NCBI GenBank assembly: GCA_003213115.1
Contig: QCNU01000001.1
Span: 1 to 64,000, forward strand
From: Pelagibacteraceae bacterium AG-426-L23
Lineage (GTDB): Bacteria > Pseudomonadota > Alphaproteobacteria > Pelagibacterales > Pelagibacteraceae
Direction: 5' to 3'
DNA length: 64,000 nucleotides
Shown here: one piece after another, positions 10,083 through 28,517 of the stretch
Layout: every line of letters begins with the position of its first letter
Numbering within the stretch: position 1 is the first letter of the stretch
The notes under the pieces: generated by a model
What the model saw: only the letters and a program-made list of their open reading frames with translations
What the model was told of the DNA's origin: nothing
Databases searched by the model: none
Program-made: the position numbers and the translations under genes

Positions 10083-11006
10083 TTAGACACCCATAGCAAA
10101 AGCTCTTTTGTTCAAGCTCTGTTTGTGGCTTTTGCCATCATCTGAAAAACTTTCTAGACTCCAATTACTTTTATCAGCAAAAAACTTTCTTAAAAGTGTA
10201 TTTGTAAGTAAATGACCGCCTTGAGAAGTTTTTATATGACCGAAAATTCTATATCCTGAAAGCATAATATCACCTAAACAATCTAATATTTTATGTTCAA
10301 CAAACTCATGTCTGCTTCTAAGTCCATCTTCATTTAAAATTTTATCACCTTGTACAACGATTGCATTGTCTAGGGACCCGCCTTGGGCTAATCCTTTGCT
10401 TTTTATAAAATCAATATCTTCATACAAACAAAAAGTCCTTGCATTATATATTGGTGTCAGATTCCCTTCACTCAGTTTAAATTCTTTTCTCCTAGTTCTG
10501 ATCAAAGGATTATTAAAAACAATCTCAAAATCAATAATTAAATCTCTGTCTAACGGTTCAATAGAAATATATTTTGGTCCATCTTTAATTTCTATTTTTT
10601 TTAGCACTTTAATAAATTTTCTCGGCTTATTTTGCTCTTTTATACCTGAACTTTTAATTGCCTCAACAAAGTCAAAAGCTGACCCATCCATAATAGGAAT
10701 CTCAGGCGCATCTATTTCTACTAAAGCATTGTCTATTCCTTCGCCATAAAAAGCTGCCATTAAGTGTTCAATTGTAGAGACAGAAATTCCATCAGAGTTT
10801 TTTAATTTAGTACACAAAACTGGTTCAATAACATTATCAAATTTTGCTTTAATAATATTGTTACCATCTAGGTCTACTCTTTTAAAAATAATGCCAGTAT
10901 TGGGATCAGCGGGTTTAACTACAAGATTTACTTTGACTCCATTATGCAAACCTATACCTTGAAGCTCTATAGTTTCATTAATAGTTTTTTGAGAATAATT
11001 TTGCAT
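10083..11006 (-). CDS. lpxC: UDP-3-O-acyl-N-acetylglucosamine deacetylase
   Basis: LpxC is the zinc enzyme of the first committed step of lipid A synthesis. The 307-residue protein is standard length. Zinc ligands are in STIEHLMAAFYG and VEHKILDCLGD, and GKSHKQSLN contains the catalytic His near the end. The N-terminus (QKTINETIELQGIGLHNG) is typical. It follows ftsA after 69 bases, the largest gap inside this long minus-strand run, so it may have its own promoter; a TATAAA lies about 12 bases before the ATG but its -35 is poor. Presence of lpxC shows that the organism makes lipid A. Confidence 0.95.
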   Translation of the reverse strand: MQNYSQKTINETIELQGIGLHNGVKVNLVVKPADPNTGIIFKRVDLDGNNIIKAKFDNVIEPVLCTKLKNSDGISVSTIEHLMAAFYGEGIDNALVEIDAPEIPIMDGSAFDFVEAIKSSGIKEQNKPRKFIKVLKKIEIKDGPKYISIEPLDRDLIIDFEIVFNNPLIRTRRKEFKLSEGNLTPIYNARTFCLYEDIDFIKSKGLAQGGSLDNAIVVQGDKILNEDGLRSRHEFVEHKILDCLGDIMLSGYRIFGHIKTSQGGHLLTNTLLRKFFADKSNWSLESFSDDGKSHKQSLNKRAFAMGV

Positions 11007-11075: not shown

Positions 11076-12275
11076 TTAACCAAAAATAGTATTAAAAATT
11101 CTTGAAATTATTGACTTTTTAGTTTGAATAATAGGTATAGCTTCTCTCTCCCAACCCTTACCAATAAGTTCAGCAGACCCTATGCATGCTCCAAGGTTTT
11201 CGTCTTTATCAAGTTTATCAAAAAAAACTTTTTTGTTTTTTGGGAATTTACTTGCAAAACTTTTCTTAAAATTTTTAAACATATTTTCATCCTCAAAAAA
11301 AAGATAAATATCAATATTTTCATCCTTTAAATATTTTAAGTTAACATTTTTTGAAAAAATTAAATTTATAATTTCCTCTATTCTTGCTGAAATTATCTCA
11401 TCTAAGTGGCTTAAGCTAATTTTTCTAAATTTATCACCTTGAAAAAAATTTTCATCTAAATAATCATTTTCTTTTTCATTTAAGTTTTCAAAAGATATAT
11501 TTTTGAAAATATTTTTAACAATATTAGGATTAAGAGAGCAAACTTTTTCAACATCAGACATTATAATATCACTTCCAAAAGAAAAATTATCAGAATAAAT
11601 AAAAGATAAATTTTTGAAGATTGAAATTTTACTTCTTTTTTTATTTATATTTATAATTCCTATAGATTTAGAAATCCTTTTTTTGTTAATCAAGTTTATA
11701 CCATCTGCAAAATTTTTAAAAACTACTCTTTCAATGTTAATGTGGCAGTTATTAAAAATTAATTTTAAATTTTTTAAATCATTTTTTGGTAACAAAAAAA
11801 AGGTTAAATGTTGATTATAAAACTCTCCATATAAACCAATAGGTATTTTCTCGATATTATTTTTATCTAAAACAAATTTTGAATTAAATAAATGTATTAA
11901 AGATTCATTGGGTTGATTATCTAAAATAATCTTTTTTATATCATTTAATATAAAAGAAATATCGTCATCGGTAACTTGAGAGCCTAATAAATTTTTATAA
12001 CCTGAAACATTTATGCATTTGTATGTATTTTGATCGCTAATTATTGTAGCACTTTTAAAAGTAAAACTTATTTTATTTTCTATCAAGTTCAGAATTTCTT
12101 TGATAATTTTTGATATGTTTATTAAGTCAATAACTTTACCATCAGAGATACCTTCAGATTTTACTGTCTCGGAATGAACAATTTTAAAGTCAAAATTTTC
12201 GTCATACTTAACAACTAGAAAATTAAAATTTTTATCATTAATTTCAACAAATAAGTAAGGTTGGTCAATTTCCAT
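11076..12275 (-). CDS. ftsA: cell-division protein FtsA, divergent, nucleotide-binding motifs not visible
   Basis: FtsA is the actin-like protein that tethers FtsZ to the membrane. Position after ftsQ and features support the call: the 'ISDGKVIDLINISKIIKEIL' helix, a 1C domain with 'INVSGYKNLLGSQVTDDDI', 'DLKNLKLIFNNCHINIERVVFKNFADG', and a C-terminal amphipathic helix (SIISRIFNTIFG) like the FtsA membrane-targeting sequence. The actin-fold sites are degraded. The first phosphate loop (usually D-I-G-T) reads EINDKN at 11-16, the second (usually D-I-G-G-G-T) reads ININKKR at 208-214, and no T-G-G-G adenosine motif is seen near 321-333. It probably no longer binds ATP in the normal way. Length of 399 residues is near normal. 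Confidence 0.85.
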   Translation of the reverse strand: MEIDQPYLFVEINDKNFNFLVVKYDENFDFKIVHSETVKSEGISDGKVIDLINISKIIKEILNLIENKISFTFKSATIISDQNTYKCINVSGYKNLLGSQVTDDDISFILNDIKKIILDNQPNESLIHLFNSKFVLDKNNIEKIPIGLYGEFYNQHLTFFLLPKNDLKNLKLIFNNCHINIERVVFKNFADGINLINKKRISKSIGIININKKRSKISIFKNLSFIYSDNFSFGSDIIMSDVEKVCSLNPNIVKNIFKNISFENLNEKENDYLDENFFQGDKFRKISLSHLDEIISARIEEIINLIFSKNVNLKYLKDENIDIYLFFEDENMFKNFKKSFASKFPKNKKVFFDKLDKDENLGACIGSAELIGKGWEREAIPIIQTKKSIISRIFNTIFG

Positions 12276-12280
12276 AAAAT

Positions 12281-12949
12281 TTAATTTAAGATTAATTGAT
12301 TTTTTATTCTGTAATCAAAAATTTTATATTTTTCAAAATCATCATCATTATATACCAAAAGAAATTTCTGTAAAATGTCTCGATAGTTTTCTTTCGGTAA
12401 TTTGACAATTATTTCATTTTTTAAAATTATATCCCACCTTCCAATATCCAAATAATGTAAGCTCTCAATTTCATTAATAGGAAAATTAATTTTTTTTAAA
12501 TCATCAAAGAAACTTTTAAATTTAATTTTTTTACCAAAAACAATTGGTAGGTTTGAAAATTCTTGTAATTCAATGTAATTTATCACTTTGCCTTTTTCAG
12601 ATATAAAAAGTCTTTTTTTACCATCCATGTAAATAGCTACTGGCTTTTTCTCATTAATTATTATTTCAAGGGTTTGTGGATAAATTTTTTTTATCTTAAA
12701 ACTTGATACAAAATCAAATTTCATTATTGTAAATTTTATTTTGTCCTTATCTATTAAAAGAATATTTTTTCCTATTAAATAAGATAAATTTTCAATAAGT
12801 AATCTTTCGTCTATAATTTTAGTATTCTTAACCTTAATGCTCTTAATTGGTAATACTAAACTTTTTGTTTCATTTTCATTCTTCGGGACATAAGTGGAAA
12901 AAATTAACAATAAAAAAAATAAAAATGTAAATTTAAATGACTTGCTCAT
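12281..12949 (-). CDS. ftsQ: cell-division protein FtsQ
   Basis: FtsQ is a bitopic divisome protein that joins early and late division proteins (FtsB/FtsL). The 222-residue product has a short cytoplasmic N-terminus, one membrane span (about residues 7-21), a POTRA domain starting 'IKSIKVKNTKIIDERLLIENL' and a beta domain containing 'IIINEKKPVAIYMDGKKRLFI'. Sequence identity to well-known FtsQ proteins is low, and the call leans on the POTRA pattern and on its place between ddl and ftsA, the normal order. Its first bases overlap the end of ddl (ATGA type) and ftsA starts five bases after it. Confidence 0.85.
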   Translation of the reverse strand: MSKSFKFTFLFFLLLIFSTYVPKNENETKSLVLPIKSIKVKNTKIIDERLLIENLSYLIGKNILLIDKDKIKFTIMKFDFVSSFKIKKIYPQTLEIIINEKKPVAIYMDGKKRLFISEKGKVINYIELQEFSNLPIVFGKKIKFKSFFDDLKKINFPINEIESLHYLDIGRWDIILKNEIIVKLPKENYRDILQKFLLVYNDDDFEKYKIFDYRIKNQLILN

Positions 12950-19658: not shown

Positions 19659-20744
19659 CTATCTTAATTTAAGTGTGGCTAAACCCACCAAAGCTAATAT
19701 TATTGCGATTATCCAAAATCTGATTACTATTGTGGACTCTGCCCACCCTTTCTTCTCAAAATGATGGTGAATAGGTGCCATTTTAAATACCCTTTTTCCT
19801 GTCAACTTGAATGAAACCACTTGAATTATTACTGAGACGGTTTCTAAAACAAATAATCCTCCGATAATCGCTAATACGATTTCATGTTTAACAATAATTG
19901 CGACTGCAGCTAACGAACCTCCTAAAGAGAGTGAGCCAGTATCACCCATAAATATTTTTGCTGGGGGCGCGTTATACCAAAGAAAACCTAGGCAGGAACC
20001 AACAATAGAACCACAAAAAATAGATATTTCTCCAACCCCGGGAATATATTGAAGTTGTAAATATTCAGAAAAAATAGTGTTACCAACTATATAGCTTATG
20101 AAAGTAAATGAAAGAGCAACCAACATAACTGGAACAGTAGCAAGACCGTCAAGGCCATCTGTAAGATTTACCGCGTTTGATGATCCAATTATAACAAAAA
20201 GTGCAAATGGTATAAAAAATAATCCCATTTGTAATATTAAGTTCTTAAAAAAAGGGAAATATAAATTATATAAATATTGATGATCGGAAAATTCAATTAA
20301 GATATACAATGCTATTAGGGCTATAATCAACTGACCTAAAAACTTTAATTTTGAATTTAAACCTCTTGAATTTTTAAGATTTATTTTTAATAGATCGTCT
20401 ATAAAACCCAAAGCACCGAGACTTAAAAATACAAAAATAAGAGTCCAGATAAATACATTTGATAAATCAGCCCAAAGCATTGTCCCTGACATCATTCCAA
20501 TAATAATTATTATTCCTCCCATTGTTGGGGTCCCACTTTTTTTGATGATATGGTCTATTGGACCATCTTGTCTGATAGGTCCTGAAATTTGTTTTTTTGA
20601 GAAAACACTAATTAAAGGTCCACCTACTAGAAAAACTACAGCAAGTGAAGTGATAACTGAAAGTCCGGTTCTAAAGGTCAAGTACTTGAATACGTTTAAA
20701 AATGAGTACTGCTCTACTAATGAAGTTAAGAAACTATATAACAT
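19659..20744 (-). CDS. mraY: phospho-N-acetylmuramoyl-pentapeptide transferase
   Basis: MraY joins phospho-MurNAc-pentapeptide to undecaprenyl phosphate, making lipid I in the membrane. It has about ten transmembrane helices in 361 residues. The conserved cytoplasmic loops are clear: GTPTMGGIII, LGALGFIDDLLKI, GSSNAVNLTDGLDGLA, NAPPAKIFMGDTGSLSLGG, and FKMAPIHHHFEKKGWAE near the end. The gene begins 11 bases inside the murE/F fusion gene. Confidence 0.96.
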   Translation of the reverse strand: MLYSFLTSLVEQYSFLNVFKYLTFRTGLSVITSLAVVFLVGGPLISVFSKKQISGPIRQDGPIDHIIKKSGTPTMGGIIIIIGMMSGTMLWADLSNVFIWTLIFVFLSLGALGFIDDLLKINLKNSRGLNSKLKFLGQLIIALIALYILIEFSDHQYLYNLYFPFFKNLILQMGLFFIPFALFVIIGSSNAVNLTDGLDGLATVPVMLVALSFTFISYIVGNTIFSEYLQLQYIPGVGEISIFCGSIVGSCLGFLWYNAPPAKIFMGDTGSLSLGGSLAAVAIIVKHEIVLAIIGGLFVLETVSVIIQVVSFKLTGKRVFKMAPIHHHFEKKGWAESTIVIRFWIIAIILALVGLATLKLR

Positions 20745-23517
20745 GAATAGTTCCTTTTATTATACTACTAGAAATTTTATTTAAACCAGTAGCGTTTGAA
20801 CCTTTAATCATCAAATAATCATTTTTTTTTACAACATTTGAAAAAACATCATCAAAATCATTTTTGTTTAGCAAAATATTTCCCTGTTTTTTTTTTGATA
20901 TATACTTATAAGTCTTTAATACTTTTTCTCCATATACAAATAGTTTATCTATATTAGAGCTGTTAATAATTTTTGACAGATTTTTATGGTAAAAATCCGA
21001 CTTGTTTCCCAATTCAAGCATATCTCCAAGTAAAACATACTTTTTATGATCTTTATCTTTTATTTTAGATAAATTCATAATTGCATTTTTTACTGAAAGT
21101 GGGTTTGCGTTATAGCTTTCATCTATAAGCTTGAACTGAGTTTTGTATCTTTTTACTTTATGAGTTTTACCCCTTCCTTTAAGTGATAATGTTTGATTGA
21201 AAAAATTTTTAATCTTATTAAAATCTAAATTTAAAATCTTTAAAACAGTAATACTGCAAAGAATATTATAAATATTTGATGCTTCAGTATTTCTAACTTT
21301 AAGCAATAAGGTTTCATCAAATATTCTTATTTTTAAATTTTTATATTTTTTATAATTTAAAATCTTTACTAAACGAACGTCTGATTTATTTGAATTACCA
21401 AATGATAAAACTTTTATTCCTCTTTTTTCAGCTAAACTTTTTAAAAAACTAAAAAATTTATCATCTCGATTTAAAATTAAACTTCCATCTTTATCAATAT
21501 TATTTATTATTTCCCCTTTTGCTTTTGCAATTTCTTTTACATTTTTAAAATTTTCAATATGAGCTTCGGCTATATTAGTAATGATACCTACATTTGGTCT
21601 TACTAATTTGGATAAATTGTTGATTTCTCCTTTTTTACTCATACCAATTTCAAAAACTCCGAATTTATGATTATTTTCCAAATTTGATAGACTAAAAGGC
21701 ACTCCATAATGGTTATTAAAAGATTTTGGAGAAAAACAAGTATCACCAAAAATTTTTAACATCTTTCCTAAAAGGGTCTTTACTGTAGTTTTCCCAGAAC
21801 TACCTGTTACCGCAATTATTTTTGCTTTTGAAAGAGTTCTTTTTAAAAATGCTAAATTGTTTAAAAATTTTATCGTGTTGTTACATTTTATTAGAAGACT
21901 TTTATTTCTAACTTTAATATTTTTCGATATCACGCAAAAATTTGCACCTTTTTTAATAGCTTCATTTACAAATTTATGTCCATCATTTCTGATACCCTTA
22001 ATAGCAATAAAAAGATTTCCCCTCTTTACTTCTTTTGAATTAAAAGAGACACCCTCAAAAGAAAATTTTTTATTTTTATTAACTATTTTTTTTAAAATTT
22101 CTGAATTAAGATGCTTGTTGTAATTACTTTTACTAAATTTTTTACCAATAAATTTCACATTTTTAATAATTGATCTATCAGATATATTTAAAATTTTTTT
22201 TCCATAATCTTGAGTTGTTTCATGACCTTTTCCGGCTATTAAAATTATTTCTTTAGGTTCGGATTTTTGCATTGCAAACTTTACCGCCTTGCTTCTGTTG
22301 CCAATTTCTAAATAATTAGCTTTTTTTAATTTTTTTATTATCATCTTTCTTATTTTTTTTGGACTTTCCCTTCTTGGATTGTCATCAGTTACATATATCT
22401 TATCAGTGAGTCGTCGAGCAATTTTAGCCATTTCTCCTCTTTTCCTTTGATCTCTCTCTCCACCACAACCAAACACTAAAGAAATTTTGCCTGTATAATT
22501 TTTTCTCAGTGATTTAAGAACTGTTGATAAGGCACCGGGTGTATGTGCAAAATCTATATAAACTTTAGAGTTATTTGGTAAAATTTTTATTAATTCCAAT
22601 CTGCCATCAACACTCTTAATTTTTTTAAGAGCTAAATCTATTTCTTTTTTTTTTAAACCACAAAGTTTTGCAGCTGCTATGGACATTAATAGATTTTTAA
22701 TTTGGAAACTTCCTATTAAAGAAATTTTTTGTTTTTTTATTTCAAAAAACTTGTTTGCCTTAATTATTTTTAAATTCCTATTATTTGCTATTTTTTTGAG
22801 CTTAAAATATTCTTTTATTTCGTCATCAACAATCATGCTTCTTTGTTTTTTTAACAAACGAGAAAAAAGTATCATTTTTGAATTAAAATAATTTTTCATA
22901 TTTTTATGATAATCCAAATGATCTTGGCTAAAATTAGTGAAAATTCCTGCTTTAAAATCAATTTTATTCAATCTTCCTTGCACTAAACCATGACTTGATG
23001 CCTCAAGAATTACGTTATTTATTCCAAGTTTTTTTAAATTATATAATTCTTTATGCATAGTAACTATATCAGGGCTGGTGAGATTCAACTTTTTTATAGC
23101 TTTATTCTTTTTAATACCTAGTGTTCCAATAGTTGCTACGGGAATTTTATTGGTATTTAAAATTTGATAGAAGAAATCAGCCACTGAGCTTTTTCCATTA
23201 GTGCCTGTGACTGCAAAAATATTTTTTGGCTTTTTTTCAAAAAATATTTCACAAACACTTGCTAATAATATTTTAGGATCTTTAGATTTGATTAAAGGTA
23301 TTTTTGTGTTTTCCTTTTTTACATTTCTAGAACAAACTACAGCAGCTGCTCCTTTTAAAATGGCGTCCTTTATAAACAAATTTCCATTAAATTCTCTCCC
23401 CTTAATTGCAAAAAAAATGTCTCCTCTTTTAACTTTTCTGCTGTCAAGAGATATGCCTTTAATTTTAATATTTCTAATATTTCGAGGTAAATTTTTAATT
23501 AGTTTTTTTAACAACAT
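20734..23517 (-). CDS. murEF: fused MurE-MurF ligase (two Mur ligases in one protein)
   Basis: One 927-residue frame carries two complete Mur ligases. Residues 1 to about 460 are MurE, which adds meso-diaminopimelate: P-loop VTGTNGKSS at 103-111, Mur fold IDFAHTPGAL near 321, and DDNPRRES at 378-385, the meso-DAP-recognising motif. Residues of about 470 to 927 are MurF, which adds D-Ala-D-Ala: N-terminal FEGVSFNSKEVKRGNLFIAIKG-type domain, P-loop VTGSSGKTT near 570, SFNNHYGVPFSLS, DESYNANPLSVKNAI and VLLGDMLELG. A short Lys/Asn-rich linker (about 455-485) joins them, with no stop. Such fusions are reported from a few other bacteria. The two enzymes act in turn in the pathway, so fusion could help pass the intermediate on. 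Confidence 0.93.
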   Translation of the reverse strand: MLLKKLIKNLPRNIRNIKIKGISLDSRKVKRGDIFFAIKGREFNGNLFIKDAILKGAAAVVCSRNVKKENTKIPLIKSKDPKILLASVCEIFFEKKPKNIFAVTGTNGKSSVADFFYQILNTNKIPVATIGTLGIKKNKAIKKLNLTSPDIVTMHKELYNLKKLGINNVILEASSHGLVQGRLNKIDFKAGIFTNFSQDHLDYHKNMKNYFNSKMILFSRLLKKQRSMIVDDEIKEYFKLKKIANNRNLKIIKANKFFEIKKQKISLIGSFQIKNLLMSIAAAKLCGLKKKEIDLALKKIKSVDGRLELIKILPNNSKVYIDFAHTPGALSTVLKSLRKNYTGKISLVFGCGGERDQRKRGEMAKIARRLTDKIYVTDDNPRRESPKKIRKMIIKKLKKANYLEIGNRSKAVKFAMQKSEPKEIILIAGKGHETTQDYGKKILNISDRSIIKNVKFIGKKFSKSNYNKHLNSEILKKIVNKNKKFSFEGVSFNSKEVKRGNLFIAIKGIRNDGHKFVNEAIKKGANFCVISKNIKVRNKSLLIKCNNTIKFLNNLAFLKRTLSKAKIIAVTGSSGKTTVKTLLGKMLKIFGDTCFSPKSFNNHYGVPFSLSNLENNHKFGVFEIGMSKKGEINNLSKLVRPNVGIITNIAEAHIENFKNVKEIAKAKGEIINNIDKDGSLILNRDDKFFSFLKSLAEKRGIKVLSFGNSNKSDVRLVKILNYKKYKNLKIRIFDETLLLKVRNTEASNIYNILCSITVLKILNLDFNKIKNFFNQTLSLKGRGKTHKVKRYKTQFKLIDESYNANPLSVKNAIMNLSKIKDKDHKKYVLLGDMLELGNKSDFYHKNLSKIINSSNIDKLFVYGEKVLKTYKYISKKKQGNILLNKNDFDDVFSNVVKKNDYLMIKGSNATGLNKISSSIIKGTIHVI

Positions 23518-25237: not shown

Positions 25238-25547
25238 TCAAAAGCTTTTTAGTTGTCTTTCTTTTTTCTTTTTTAAAATCATCAATGCTAAAATAAATTT
25301 TTGAAAAATTTATACTCAAATATTCATCGTCGCTATATTCCAGAATTTTATTTGATAAATTTTCTGGAGATGAAAGATAAAAATATTCTAGTTGGGCTTC
25401 ATATAGATTATTATTAAGCTCACTAATTTTAATCTGTTGAGAATTAATATTTTTTTCTATTATTCTGGTTTGAGTTTTTATAAGTGCAGTTAAAAACATA
25501 AGAATAGAAAAAATAGTTATTGAAATAAATACCTTTTTTTTAAACAT
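25212..25547 (-). CDS. ftsL: FtsL-like bitopic division protein
   Basis: A 111-residue protein with a membrane span at about residues 5-23, followed by a helical, coiled-coil-like stretch ('RIIEKNINSQQIKISELNNNLYEAQLEYFYLSSPENL'). FtsL proteins are poorly conserved and are called by this layout and by position between rsmH and ftsI, which is exactly the place here. It should form a complex with FtsQ and an FtsB protein; no ftsB is seen in this window. The phrase 'YFYLSSPENLSNKIL' fits the end of the FtsL coiled coil in alphaproteobacteria. Confidence 0.8.
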   Translation of the reverse strand: MFKKKVFISITIFSILMFLTALIKTQTRIIEKNINSQQIKISELNNNLYEAQLEYFYLSSPENLSNKILEYSDDEYLSINFSKIYFSIDDFKKEKRKTTKKLLNDKKIQEK

Positions 25548-26556
25548 TTATCTTCTCCAAATCCAAATATCTTTTAAATTTTTTTTTAAGTTCGTCAGGA
25601 TTTTTAAATTGTTCATTATTTCTAATAATAAATCTTAATTTTGCTGATCTAGATTTTGGATTTATCTTTATTTCTTCAGGACTTGCTTTTAAGAATTTAC
25701 TATTATTTTTTTTAAATAAAATTGGAAATTGTGTTTCATCTTCTGGTAAATATCTTGATGGTTTAGACCTATTTTTTGAGTAATGATTAAAAAAAAATTT
25801 AATTATTTTATCTTCTATTGAATGAAATGTAACAACAACTATTTTTCCGTCTGTTTTTAAAAATTTGGTAGCCTTTGCTATTCCCTCAACTAATTCAGTA
25901 ATTTCTTTATTTACAAATATCCTTAAAGCTTGAAAAGTTTTAGTGCAAACATTAATTTTTTTCTTAAAAATTTTTCTTTTACTTGTTTCTATTATTTTAA
26001 CAAATTCTGGTACCAAGGAAATTCTTTTTTTTTCTCTAGCTCTTACAATATTTTTTGCAATACGTGATCCTTCTTTTTCTTCCCCGAAGGTTTTTATAAT
26101 TAATTTTAAATTTTTTTCATCAATTTCATTTAATACTTCTTCTGCTGATATTTCAGATAAACCCATATTCATGTCTATCTTTTTATTTGACTTAAAAGAA
26201 AAACCTCTATCTAAATCTAAAAGTTGATTAGTAGAAATTCCTAGATCAAATATAAAAGTATCTATATCGTTTTTCTTATTTACAATTAAATCAAGATTAC
26301 TAAATTTTTCATTATAAAATGAAAAACGTCCAGAAAATTTTTCTCTTAATTTTTCTGCTTCTGCTATTGCTCCCTTGTCTCTGTCTAAAGCTATAACTTT
26401 TGTGTTTGGAAATTTTAATAATTCTTTAGAATAACCGCCACCACCGAATGTACAATCAACAAAATTACCGCCCTTTTTTGGTGAGCAAATTTCAATTACT
26501 TCTTTTAACATCACTGGAAAATGAGGGGGATCCAGTGATGTTTGAGCGGCATTCAT
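25540..26556 (-). CDS. rsmH: 16S rRNA (cytosine1402-N4)-methyltransferase RsmH
   Basis: RsmH (MraW) methylates C1402 of 16S rRNA with S-adenosylmethionine. Family motifs: HFPVMLKEVIEICSPKKGGNFVDCTFGGGGYS at the start, ALDRDKGAIAEA, FIFDLGISTNQLLDLDRGFSF, TFQALRIFVNKE and VVTFHSIEDKIIKFFF. The length of about 338 residues is normal. I start at the ATG at 26556; a TTG three codons earlier is less likely. It follows ftsZ by 18 bases, whereas it normally follows mraZ directly. Confidence 0.95.
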   Translation of the reverse strand: MNAAQTSLDPPHFPVMLKEVIEICSPKKGGNFVDCTFGGGGYSKELLKFPNTKVIALDRDKGAIAEAEKLREKFSGRFSFYNEKFSNLDLIVNKKNDIDTFIFDLGISTNQLLDLDRGFSFKSNKKIDMNMGLSEISAEEVLNEIDEKNLKLIIKTFGEEKEGSRIAKNIVRAREKKRISLVPEFVKIIETSKRKIFKKKINVCTKTFQALRIFVNKEITELVEGIAKATKFLKTDGKIVVVTFHSIEDKIIKFFFNHYSKNRSKPSRYLPEDETQFPILFKKNNSKFLKASPEEIKINPKSRSAKLRFIIRNNEQFKNPDELKKKFKRYLDLEKINV

Positions 26557-26574
26557 TTTTGGCAAAATAAAACA

Positions 26575-28059
26575 TTAAAATTTTTGTTTTCTTAAAAAAG
26601 CAGGAATCTCAAATTCCTCTTCTTCGTTTACATTCTCTTGATCAAATAGTTTTTCATTTTGATCTTCTTTTTCAATGTTTGTGTCATTTGTTGAATCTTC
26701 TAGAGCATCGTTATCAACTGAAAATAATCTAGGTGTATTTTCGTCTTGCGCGGTATGAAGATTGTTTGTTGCAGGTGTGTCAGAAATTTTTGCACTCTCA
26801 TTGTTATTCTCAATGTAAGATGCATTTTCTAAAGAAACACCTGAGGTAGTATCGATTGACTGTTCATTACTTGCTTCTAAAGATTGGCTAGATTCCGTCT
26901 CTATATTAGTCAAATCCTCTTTCTGACTTTCCGACTCAAAAGTTTCCTCTAACTTTAAAGCTGTTGCGCCACTTATTGAATTAATGGCATTGCTCTCGAT
27001 ATGAGTGCTTTTAGAGAATAAACCATCTGAATAACCTGGGTTTCTATTTTGCATTCTGCTAACCATATTAAGAACAGTTTTTGAGTGTGGAGCTTCTCCA
27101 TCAAGAGCGGTTGCTACTATAGAAACTCTCATCTTCCCATTAAGACTTTCATCTTTAATAGCTCCAAATATTAATTCAGCTTCAGGATCAACTTCAGCTC
27201 TTATTTTATTTACAGCTTGATCTACCTCAAATAATTTTATGTCATCTCCGCCAGTTATGTTTACAAGTAAACCTTTAGCTCCTTTAAGAGAATAATCATC
27301 AATTAATGGATTATTCAAAGCAAGTTCAGTAGCAGCAAGTGCTCTATTTTCTCCTTCGCCCTCACCTGTTCCCATCATTGCTTTTCCCATTGAGCTCATA
27401 ACAGTTTCAACATCGGCAAAATCTAAATTTATTAAACCAGGTCTTACCATTAAATCTGTTACACTTTGGACTCCTTGTTTAAGAACATCGTTAGATAGCT
27501 CAAAAGATTGCTCAAAACCTGTGGACTCATTTGCGATTTTAAATAAATTTTGGTTTGGAACCAAGATTGAAGTATCAAGATGTTTTTTTAATTCTTCCCA
27601 CCCTTGCATTGCTCTACGCATTCTTTTTGGGCCTTCATAAGAAAATGGAAGAGTGATTACTCCCACGGTTAAAATATTTAATTCTTTAGCTGCACGCGCT
27701 ATAATATGTGAGGCGCCAGTACCTGTTCCACCGCCCATACCTGCAGTAATAAAAATCATATTACTTCCTTGAATGTAGCTCACTATCTCATTTAAAGACT
27801 CGTCTGCAGCAGCTTGACCGATATCGTGTTTAGCTCCTGCACCTAATCCTTTGGTAAGATTCATACCAATTTGGATTTTTGCATCTGCCTTGTTCATTTT
27901 TAGGTCTTGAGCATCAGTATTTACTGCAACAAACTCAACGCCTTGTAAACCTGCCTCTATCATTGCATCGATGGCATTACCCCCTGCACCGCCAACTCCT
28001 AAAACCAAAATTCTTGGTTTAAGCTCCTTAAGCTCTCCTCCTCCTATATTTATCGTCAT
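26575..28059 (-). CDS. ftsZ: cell-division GTPase FtsZ
   Basis: FtsZ is the tubulin-like GTPase that forms the division ring. The GTPase domain has VLGVGGAGGNAIDAMI, NTDAQDL, the tubulin signature GGGTGTGAS and NLDFADVETVMSSMG. A long acidic, Ser/Asn-rich linker (about 320-480) leads to the conserved C-terminal peptide EFEIPAFLRKQ, the docking site for FtsA and other partners. I start at the ATG at 28059. It overlaps the mraZ stop (ATGA) and has a strong AAAGGAGGGGG ribosome site just before it; the upstream ATG at 28086 would lie inside mraZ. Its place right after mraZ is unusual, since ftsZ normally follows ftsA at the far end of this cluster. Confidence 0.96.
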   Translation of the reverse strand: MTINIGGGELKELKPRILVLGVGGAGGNAIDAMIEAGLQGVEFVAVNTDAQDLKMNKADAKIQIGMNLTKGLGAGAKHDIGQAAADESLNEIVSYIQGSNMIFITAGMGGGTGTGASHIIARAAKELNILTVGVITLPFSYEGPKRMRRAMQGWEELKKHLDTSILVPNQNLFKIANESTGFEQSFELSNDVLKQGVQSVTDLMVRPGLINLDFADVETVMSSMGKAMMGTGEGEGENRALAATELALNNPLIDDYSLKGAKGLLVNITGGDDIKLFEVDQAVNKIRAEVDPEAELIFGAIKDESLNGKMRVSIVATALDGEAPHSKTVLNMVSRMQNRNPGYSDGLFSKSTHIESNAINSISGATALKLEETFESESQKEDLTNIETESSQSLEASNEQSIDTTSGVSLENASYIENNNESAKISDTPATNNLHTAQDENTPRLFSVDNDALEDSTNDTNIEKEDQNEKLFDQENVNEEEEFEIPAFLRKQKF

Positions 28060-28517
28060 TCCCCCTCCTTTGTTTGTTTTTCCCATTTTAATGATGATCT
28101 ATTTTTAAAAGCTTTTTTCTTTGCCAGTATTTTAAATTTTTCAAAATTTTTTGGCTCCCAAATTTGAAATGTTTTTCCAAGACCTACGAACAAAATCTCG
28201 TTTTTAATCTTTGCATGTTTAAGTAATTTGTCAGGAAACAAAACTCTTCCCTCACTATCAAACTGTAAGCTAACACTTTCAGACAAAACTGAAGTGGCAA
28301 AATAGTCTCTTTTTTCTTCAAATGGATTAAGTGTGTCTATGGTATTCGAGAGTTTTTCAATTCTATCCTGAGAACAGCCCTCTAAAGCTGAATAATTAAA
28401 TGACGGATAAGTTACAAAACCATTGTAGCCAAGAGAATTTAAGTGAGATCTAAAGGTTGCAGGCACTGAAACCCTCCCTTTTTTGTCTAATTTGTTTTCG
28501 TAACTTGATAAAAACAT
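28056..28517 (-). CDS. mraZ: transcriptional regulator MraZ
   Basis: MraZ is an AbrB-fold DNA-binding protein that controls its own division and cell-wall operon. The 153-residue protein has both half-motifs: SYENKLDKKGRVSVPATFR near the start and LQFDSEGRVLFPDKLL about residue 80. It is the first gene of the minus-strand operon. Repeats that match known MraZ boxes overlap a promoter about 100 bases upstream. The end of mraZ overlaps the start of ftsZ by four bases, so MraZ and FtsZ are probably made from the same message by coupled translation. Confidence 0.94.
   Translation of the reverse strand: MFLSSYENKLDKKGRVSVPATFRSHLNSLGYNGFVTYPSFNYSALEGCSQDRIEKLSNTIDTLNPFEEKRDYFATSVLSESVSLQFDSEGRVLFPDKLLKHAKIKNEILFVGLGKTFQIWEPKNFEKFKILAKKKAFKNRSSLKWEKQTKEGE

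Follow-up and report, generated by a model that had tools for sequence, protein, structure and literature searches.

The window analysed here, a stretch of 64,000 nucleotides from Pelagibacteraceae bacterium AG-426-L23, carries a cluster of division and cell-wall genes on its minus strand, in which mraZ, ftsZ, rsmH, ftsL, ftsI, murEF, mraY, murD, ftsW, murG, murC, murB, ddl, ftsQ, ftsA and lpxC were named by reading. The ftsA frame lies beside ftsQ and lpxC (Table 1); without its stop codon it spans 11079–12275, and the plus strand over 11076–12275 is full of stops. In E. coli, ftsZ stands between ftsA and lpxC; in the window it lies elsewhere, by reading between mraZ (28056–28517) and rsmH (25540–26565), at about 15 kb from ftsA. 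Similar distances between the two genes were seen in G067 (genus g6), G106 (g1), G065 (g7) and G061 (g5), where g1 denotes the window's own, MED-G40-like genus. Within the same cluster, MurE and MurF are apparently fused in a single frame of 927 aa (20734–23517, minus strand; by reading).

Table 1. Genes and features of the ftsA locus in the window
Feature	Position	Strand	Remarks
ftsA	11076..12275 (stop included)	minus	399 aa, ATG start; FtsA without nucleotide-site residues
ftsQ	12281..12949	minus	upstream neighbour of ftsA; named by reading and gene order; similar frame at this place in relatives
lpxC	10083..11006	minus	downstream neighbour of ftsA; anchor of the survey
ftsZ	26575..28086	minus	C-terminal docking peptide EIPAFLRKQKF intact
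Phosphate-1 loop, degenerate	12222..12245	minus	residues 11-18, EINDKNFN; aligned with E. coli FtsA E14-T17
Subdomain 1C	11823..12020	minus	residues 86-151, Pfam match
Phosphate-2 loop, degenerate	11634..11654	minus	residues 208-214, ININKKR; aligned with E. coli V209-T215
R298 and E301, kept	11373..11384	minus	equivalent to E. coli R300/E303
Lost adenosine-loop region	11280..11318	minus	residues 320-332, NIDIYLFFEDENM; aligned with E. coli 331-345
C-terminal amphipathic stretch, putative	11079..11117	minus	residues 387-399, KSIISRIFNTIFG

Among family models, TIGR01174 (ftsA) matched the window protein best by far (residues 11–316, 108.3 bits, E 4.5e-31), with a score below its curated cut-off of 175.85. 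The 1C domain, which the earlier note had described as still present, passed the cut-off of the Pfam model SHS2_FTSA (26.9 versus 25.4 bits). The ATPase model PF14450 gave no match to the window FtsA, and its sole match in the window's genome was MreB. The best relatives among solved structures were FtsA chains (E 1.5e-9, or 4.9e-14 with a profile of the genus). An AlphaFold2 model built from 17 sequences of the genus reached a pLDDT of 77.0 and a pTM of 0.79; prediction from the single sequence was of no use (pLDDT 32). The first 16 Foldseek matches of the model were FtsA chains (3wt0 among them), and FtsA also filled rows 1–11 of the structural alignment (Z 22.6–23.9, rmsd 5.1–6.2, 334–349 residues aligned), at an identity to solved FtsA of 13–16%. 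A complete FtsA fold is thus predicted for the protein. With canonical FtsA of E. coli, Thermotoga maritima and Vibrio maritimus it shares this fold over residues 3–377, 1C in the FtsA position, the ftsQ/lpxC neighbours, the R300/E303 pair and a putative amphipathic C-terminal stretch; it differs from them in lacking G16, T17, D210, G212 and G336/G337.

Other members of the actin fold were considered. PilM resembles the window protein in its 1C-bearing actin fold, in weak profile matches and in Z scores of 16.5–20.8 with the model; however, it stands below the FtsA rows, the PilM models score far under their cut-offs (PilM_2, 12.7 versus 27 bits; TIGR01175, 16.5 versus 133), and the window gene occupies the cluster position of ftsA. 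The protein is not the MreB of the genome either, as the MreB-type frame (345 aa) lies at another locus (G000:C5). The nuclear actin-related proteins Arp7 and Arp9 also appear in the fold list through their actin fold (Z 17.1–17.2), but they are eukaryotic and of a function unrelated to FtsA. Both serve as scaffolds and are not known to have an ATP cycle or a 1C subdomain. Hence, the window protein is FtsA by fold, gene order and descent, though it fails the curated score and lacks the three ATP loops in the alignment.

The weak score is a mark of Pelagibacterales, since FtsA exceeded the TIGR01174 cut-off in 12 of 297 genomes from this order versus 167 of 190 in the class sample. Many proteins of f2, another family, and many long forms of g6 also fail it, so that a low score is found more widely than a missing ATP site. 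Among 30 g1 genomes searched, FtsA exceeded the cut-off in none. A second canonical FtsA was not found in the window's genome, where the best of three TIGR01174 matches was the ftsA locus itself, below cut-off; this genome is 84% complete, so that the absence is not strict.

For comparison, the frame directly upstream of lpxC was collected across Pelagibacterales, identical proteins were counted once, and the resulting 119 distinct full-length FtsA were aligned with E. coli FtsA (120 rows). Left out were frames cut by the contig start (L088, L098, L099, L113, L128), loci without an upstream frame (L114, L132, L139, L142, L147), non-Pelagibacterales or wrong frames (L146, L149–L151) and loci without LpxC (L001, L034); set A2 also omits L136, a row with unknown residues. 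The g1 label of 13 named FtsA was assigned from LpxC identity. One locus labelled in this way, L142, from which the set contains no FtsA, is placed among g10, and one other g1-labelled terminal of the five-gene tree described below sits near g10.

The earlier note had read EINDKN and ININKKR in place of the two phosphate loops and had seen no adenosine loop near 321–333. All three readings stand on the 120-row alignment, with the gene on the minus strand, and wrong placement of the motifs is rejected: EINDKN occupies residues 11–16, ININKKR is found opposite V-D-I-G-G-G-T (E. coli 209–215), and NIDIYLFFEDENM opposite a segment ending in I-V-L-T-G-G-A-A-Q. One detail has to be corrected. The replacement of D-I-G-T by EINDKN includes true losses of G16 and T17, but the change from D to E is no loss, because E. 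coli FtsA itself has a glutamate (E14) at the first position of this loop. In total, the true losses in the window FtsA are G16, T17, D210, G212 and the glycines of the adenosine loop.

Four markers were scored: G16 for phosphate loop 1, D210 and G212 for phosphate loop 2, and GxG for the adenosine loop. E. coli FtsA has GGAA and fails the last of these, so that G336 is the better marker. None of the four was kept in 38 of the 45 distinct g1 proteins and one in the other seven; the corresponding numbers in g9 were five and two of seven. In g10, four markers were kept in 5/9, two in 3/9 and one in 1/9. All four were present in 19/19 proteins of g5, g7, g8, g12, g13, g15 and g16, and long FtsA of g6 kept four (13/17) or three (4/17). 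Single residues gave the same picture: G16, D210, G212 and G336 were kept in 1, 1, 5 and 0 of the 45 g1 proteins, and each in 18/18 of six related genera (g5, g7, g8, g12, g13, g16), while G336 was present in 0/7 of g9. The loss is thus fixed in the window's genus and the loops intact in these six genera, as the alignment proposed in the earlier note was to decide. The single g14 protein (L166 of G325, one genome) lacks all four markers and stands apart from g1 and g9 on the tree.

In f2, three markers were kept in 2/21, two in 17/21 and one in 2/21. This family (L031, L041–L043, L045–L061) has fixed pocket changes of its own, G16 to R in 19/21, G212 to Q in 17/21 and G337 to Y in 19/21, and its second phosphate loop and adenosine loop are highly conserved; it may bind nucleotide in another way.

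The phosphate-1 glutamate (E14 of E. coli) is still E in 41/45 g1 and 7/7 g9 proteins, and asparagine occupies the G16 site in 35/45 of g1. As stated in the portion of PMC10213515 drawn on here, E14 is needed for the ATP-dependent work of E. coli FtsA, and a kept glutamate would not be predicted by total loss of the ATP site. At the D210 site, g1 mostly has K, E, N or Q. The adenosine-loop region became acidic in g1 (mean net charge −1.27 versus +0.06 in intact genera), but this does not hold for all three loops, since phosphate loop 1 has −1.20 versus −1.06 in intact genera and phosphate loop 2 went from −0.78 to +0.42. A salt bridge between E14 and K210 in place of Mg-ATP was considered as well; E is found with K or R in 20/45, yet the pairs E-E (6) and E-N (8) indicate that such a bridge is not general. 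In the model of the window FtsA, the elements bearing the loops are still predicted (E7–12/E16–24, E205–210/E215–221 and E322–327/H330–343), and a cleft therefore exists in the model. At the level of predicted elements, the structural model that the earlier note had proposed to inspect shows a full FtsA fold with the loop-bearing turns kept as turns, which counts against total loss of the site.

To compare constraint, the pairwise identity of alignment segments was ranked separately for every group. Percentiles of phosphate loop 1, phosphate loop 2 and the adenosine loop were 95/99/95 in the six intact genera (18 proteins), 90/92/96 in the g6 long form, which serves as single-genus control, and 72/93/98 in f2. 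They were 64/48/18 in g1 and 35/65/34 in g9, and in g10 they were 60/9/14, although the markers are kept there in 5/9. The percentile of 1C moved in the opposite direction, from 40 in intact genera, 32 in the g6 long form and 45 in f2 to 95 in g1, 97 in g9 and 97 in g10. The stretch with R300/E303 was at the 93rd percentile in intact genera and the 83rd in g1, and the conservation of 2A/2B in g1 was 0.39 versus a protein mean of 0.43.

The window FtsA and that of MED-G40 are 88% identical, with a dS of 0.52 and a dN/dS of 0.107, which rejects a pseudogene. Three other g1 pairs gave 0.11–0.15, six full-length pairs outside g1 0.075–0.25, and two pairs of short FtsA (see below) 0.19 and 0.28. 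Thus, ftsA of g1 is under purifying selection, and constraint has shifted from the nucleotide loops towards 1C. Together with the alignment, this shift upholds the central claim of the earlier note, that of an FtsA which seems to have lost the residues of its ATP site.

In a FastTree phylogeny of five neighbouring genes from 146 genomes, rooted on f2, g9 falls inside g1, g1 and g9 stand beside g10 and g15, and g6 groups with g12 and g16. Support was weak for g1 with g9 (0.35) and strong for g1, g9, g10 and g15 together (1.00). This pattern is most simply explained if the ATP site was lost once, in the line of g1 and g9, with erosion visible in g10, and if f2 and g14 changed separately.

A different alteration was found in g6. 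In four single-contig genomes of this genus (G062, G063, G067, G070), the interval between ftsQ and lpxC holds a frame of only 222–233 aa. Profile comparison of 14 short FtsA, including a broken 174-aa frame of G073, with 17 long FtsA of g6 matched the two termini (E 8.3e-43) and left one gap of some 160 residues between them, and the junction lies at the same alignment place across all these forms. By homology, short FtsA comprises an N-terminal portion of 1A followed by 1C and by the middle portion of 1A, which leads directly into the last 1A helix and the amphipathic end; domain 2 (2A and 2B) is missing. The short profile also matched E. coli FtsA (residues 55–196, E 3.3e-4) and the g1 profile (residues 1–192, E 5.9e-16). 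Domain 2 has not been split off as a separate gene, as its profile matched in 0/14 genomes with the short form versus 3/3 long-form controls (E 1.1e-42 to 6.5e-53).

Complete short frames (220–248 aa) number at least 102 among 298 genomes of the family that are at least 80% complete, and all 102 among the matches listed belong to g6; 17 further short, cut or broken frames are left out of this number. Among the matches listed, any match to the short profile was counted in 176 g6 genomes, and the profile also matched 54 g1 genomes, the window's own not included. One short form, that of G074, nests with long forms: outside domain 2 it is 45% identical to those of G290 and G066, and its identity to the other short forms does not exceed 32%. 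The five-gene tree calls for three excisions of domain 2 and the FtsA tree, on which G069 and G078 join the main short clade, for two, and we therefore state the loss as at least twice. The short ftsA of G073, a single-contig genome of 100% completeness (L090/L110), is disrupted, by stop codons or a shift of frame, which may be a sequencing error or a real loss. Family models recognise the short form badly, with the Pfam FtsA domain found in one of four proteins tested and TIGR01174 in two of three, none over cut-off; in many genomes the label 'hypothetical' is therefore expected.

The R300/E303 pair, which we take to belong to the FtsZ-docking face of 2B, is present in 45/45 g1 proteins and in 119/119 full-length FtsA, and is invariant in A2. 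On the side of FtsZ, the ending EIPAFLR[RK]Q plus two residues was read in 28 of 29 genomes, among them 13 with short FtsA; the 29th, from f2, has a different ending at a contig end, and a thirtieth genome (G081) gave no FtsZ match. The peptide in the window is the one that the earlier note had seen. It had also named an amphipathic C-terminal helix, and the stretch has an amphipathic moment of 0.68 (0.78 in E. coli), with modest statistics (mean shuffle frequency in g1, 0.095); a helix at 389–398 is predicted at the low-confidence end of the model.

Partners that might replace or complement FtsA were searched for. SepF as a substitute tether was found in 0/20 genomes, six of them with short FtsA, with positive controls in 7 of 14 named genomes. 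SPOR matches were obtained in 8/20 genomes, and the two loci read, L208 and L205, encode RlpA-like lipoproteins, not FtsN. No FtsN-like partner of 1C was recognised at these two of the eight, and an FtsN without recognisable SPOR domain is possible. The RlpA-like SPOR lipoprotein gene of SAR11 lies between MltB-like and DacA-like genes (L208, 1006–1740, plus strand; L205, 1459–2220, minus strand).

Published work on the subdomains helps to weigh these results. A section of PMC7613929 describes the longitudinal contact of FtsA filaments as IIA–IIB and lateral contacts by IC, and has the FtsN tail bound in the IA–IC cleft, as PilN is in PilM. According to an excerpt of PMC4281207, deletion of 2B abolishes the interaction with FtsZ, and 1C mediates self-interaction and recruits FtsQ and FtsN. 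The same excerpt says that mutations in the FtsA ATP site abolish self-interaction and FtsZ binding, a statement that, on our analysis, speaks against an ATP-less FtsA still docking FtsZ. The pocket mutants E14R, S84L and A188V of E. coli, reported in part of PMC10213515, alter the same pocket as in g1, with the difference that activity is impaired and division suffers in the mutants, whereas the change is fixed genus-wide in g1.

On this evidence, the window protein is a true FtsA, maintained by selection, that has probably ceased to bind ATP and would serve as an adaptor free of nucleotide with its docking of FtsZ preserved. Without nucleotide, it would lack the ATP-driven polymerisation and the cycle of membrane release described for E. 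coli. The loops might instead have been rewired, with the kept glutamate, asparagine-rich turns and substitutes for the glycines still holding a nucleotide. Glutamate in 41/45 and asparagine at the G16 site in 35/45 agree with this reading, as do the loop-bearing strands kept in the model and the 64th percentile of phosphate loop 1. Conservation would, however, be expected of a working site, and is seen in the long form of g6 and, on different residues, in f2; in g1, phosphate loop 2 is at the 48th percentile and the adenosine loop at the 18th, the latter acidic, and D210 has mostly become K, E, N or Q, which makes rewiring improbable. Even less probable is a decaying gene, that is, an FtsA that does little and is being abandoned by SAR11. 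Such decay would fit the graded erosion seen across the order, the repeated excision of domain 2 and the one broken short form (G073), but dN/dS is 0.107 for the window pair, 0.11–0.15 for other g1 pairs and 0.19 and 0.28 for short pairs, full length is kept in 45 distinct g1 proteins with strongly conserved 1C, and at least 102 short frames are complete.

What such an adaptor does is a further question. The earlier note proposed a plain membrane tether, with the FtsZ peptide on 2B, the helix in the membrane and nothing else. The parts it requires are all retained: R300/E303 in 45/45, an FtsZ face that ranks at the 83rd percentile, the docking peptide of FtsZ and the putative amphipathic stretch. 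SepF, moreover, was found in 0/20 genomes. However, 1C (95th percentile) ranks above the FtsZ face (83rd), and many g6 species that have lost the FtsZ dock keep 1C. Since 1C, the subdomain that binds partners, has become the most conserved part and g6 deletes the docking half, the protein probably does more than tether FtsZ, and a pure tether is a doubtful reading. Constitutive filaments, formed independently of ATP around a cleft closed without nucleotide, are less probable still; 2A/2B, to which a passage of PMC7613929 assigns the longitudinal contact, are kept in g1, but their conservation there (0.39) is below the protein mean (0.43), and the short form lacks them.

With a probability of roughly 0.7, SAR11 bacteria are dismantling the actin of FtsA by two roads. 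In g1 and g9, the ATP site would have been erased and the shell kept. In many species of g6, the same trend would have taken the other road, excision of domain 2 at the hinge at least twice, leaving an adaptor of 1A, 1C and the helix. Domain 2 contributes one half of the ATP site, makes the longitudinal contact of the filament and bears the dock for FtsZ, and the short adaptor would hence be without inter-domain ATP, IIA–IIB contact and 2B dock. Division would then proceed without an FtsA actin filament, with the FtsZ peptide bound by 1A/1C or another protein, and where 2B is gone the peptide should have some binder. The common denominator of the g1 and g6 forms is a membrane-bound 1A/1C adaptor, and SAR11 FtsA, once an actin driven by ATP, is probably being remodelled around this core into a protein that works without nucleotide. 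What SAR11 cannot dispense with in FtsA seems to be membrane-bound 1C and not the actin ATPase.

FtsA is regarded as an actin that depends on ATP. In the open-licence literature of PMC, we found no report of an FtsA without its ATP site or without domain 2. In E. coli, as given in part of PMC10213515, losing the nucleotide-dependent activities of FtsA leads to failed assembly of the Z-ring. An entire genus of these abundant marine bacteria apparently manages without the ATP site, many species of a second genus lack half of the FtsA actin, and division in g1 and g6 may take place with no functional FtsA actin. These proteins are natural separation-of-function forms, one with domain 2 and no nucleotide residues and one without domain 2, and they make the roles of ATP and filament, and the essential part of FtsA, directly testable. 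Beyond the order, six Alphaproteobacteria with genomes of 0.6–1.4 Mb (G414, G545, G465, G584, G427, G491) have weak best matches to TIGR01174 (E 1e-38 to 1e-22) and are possible further cases of FtsA erosion.
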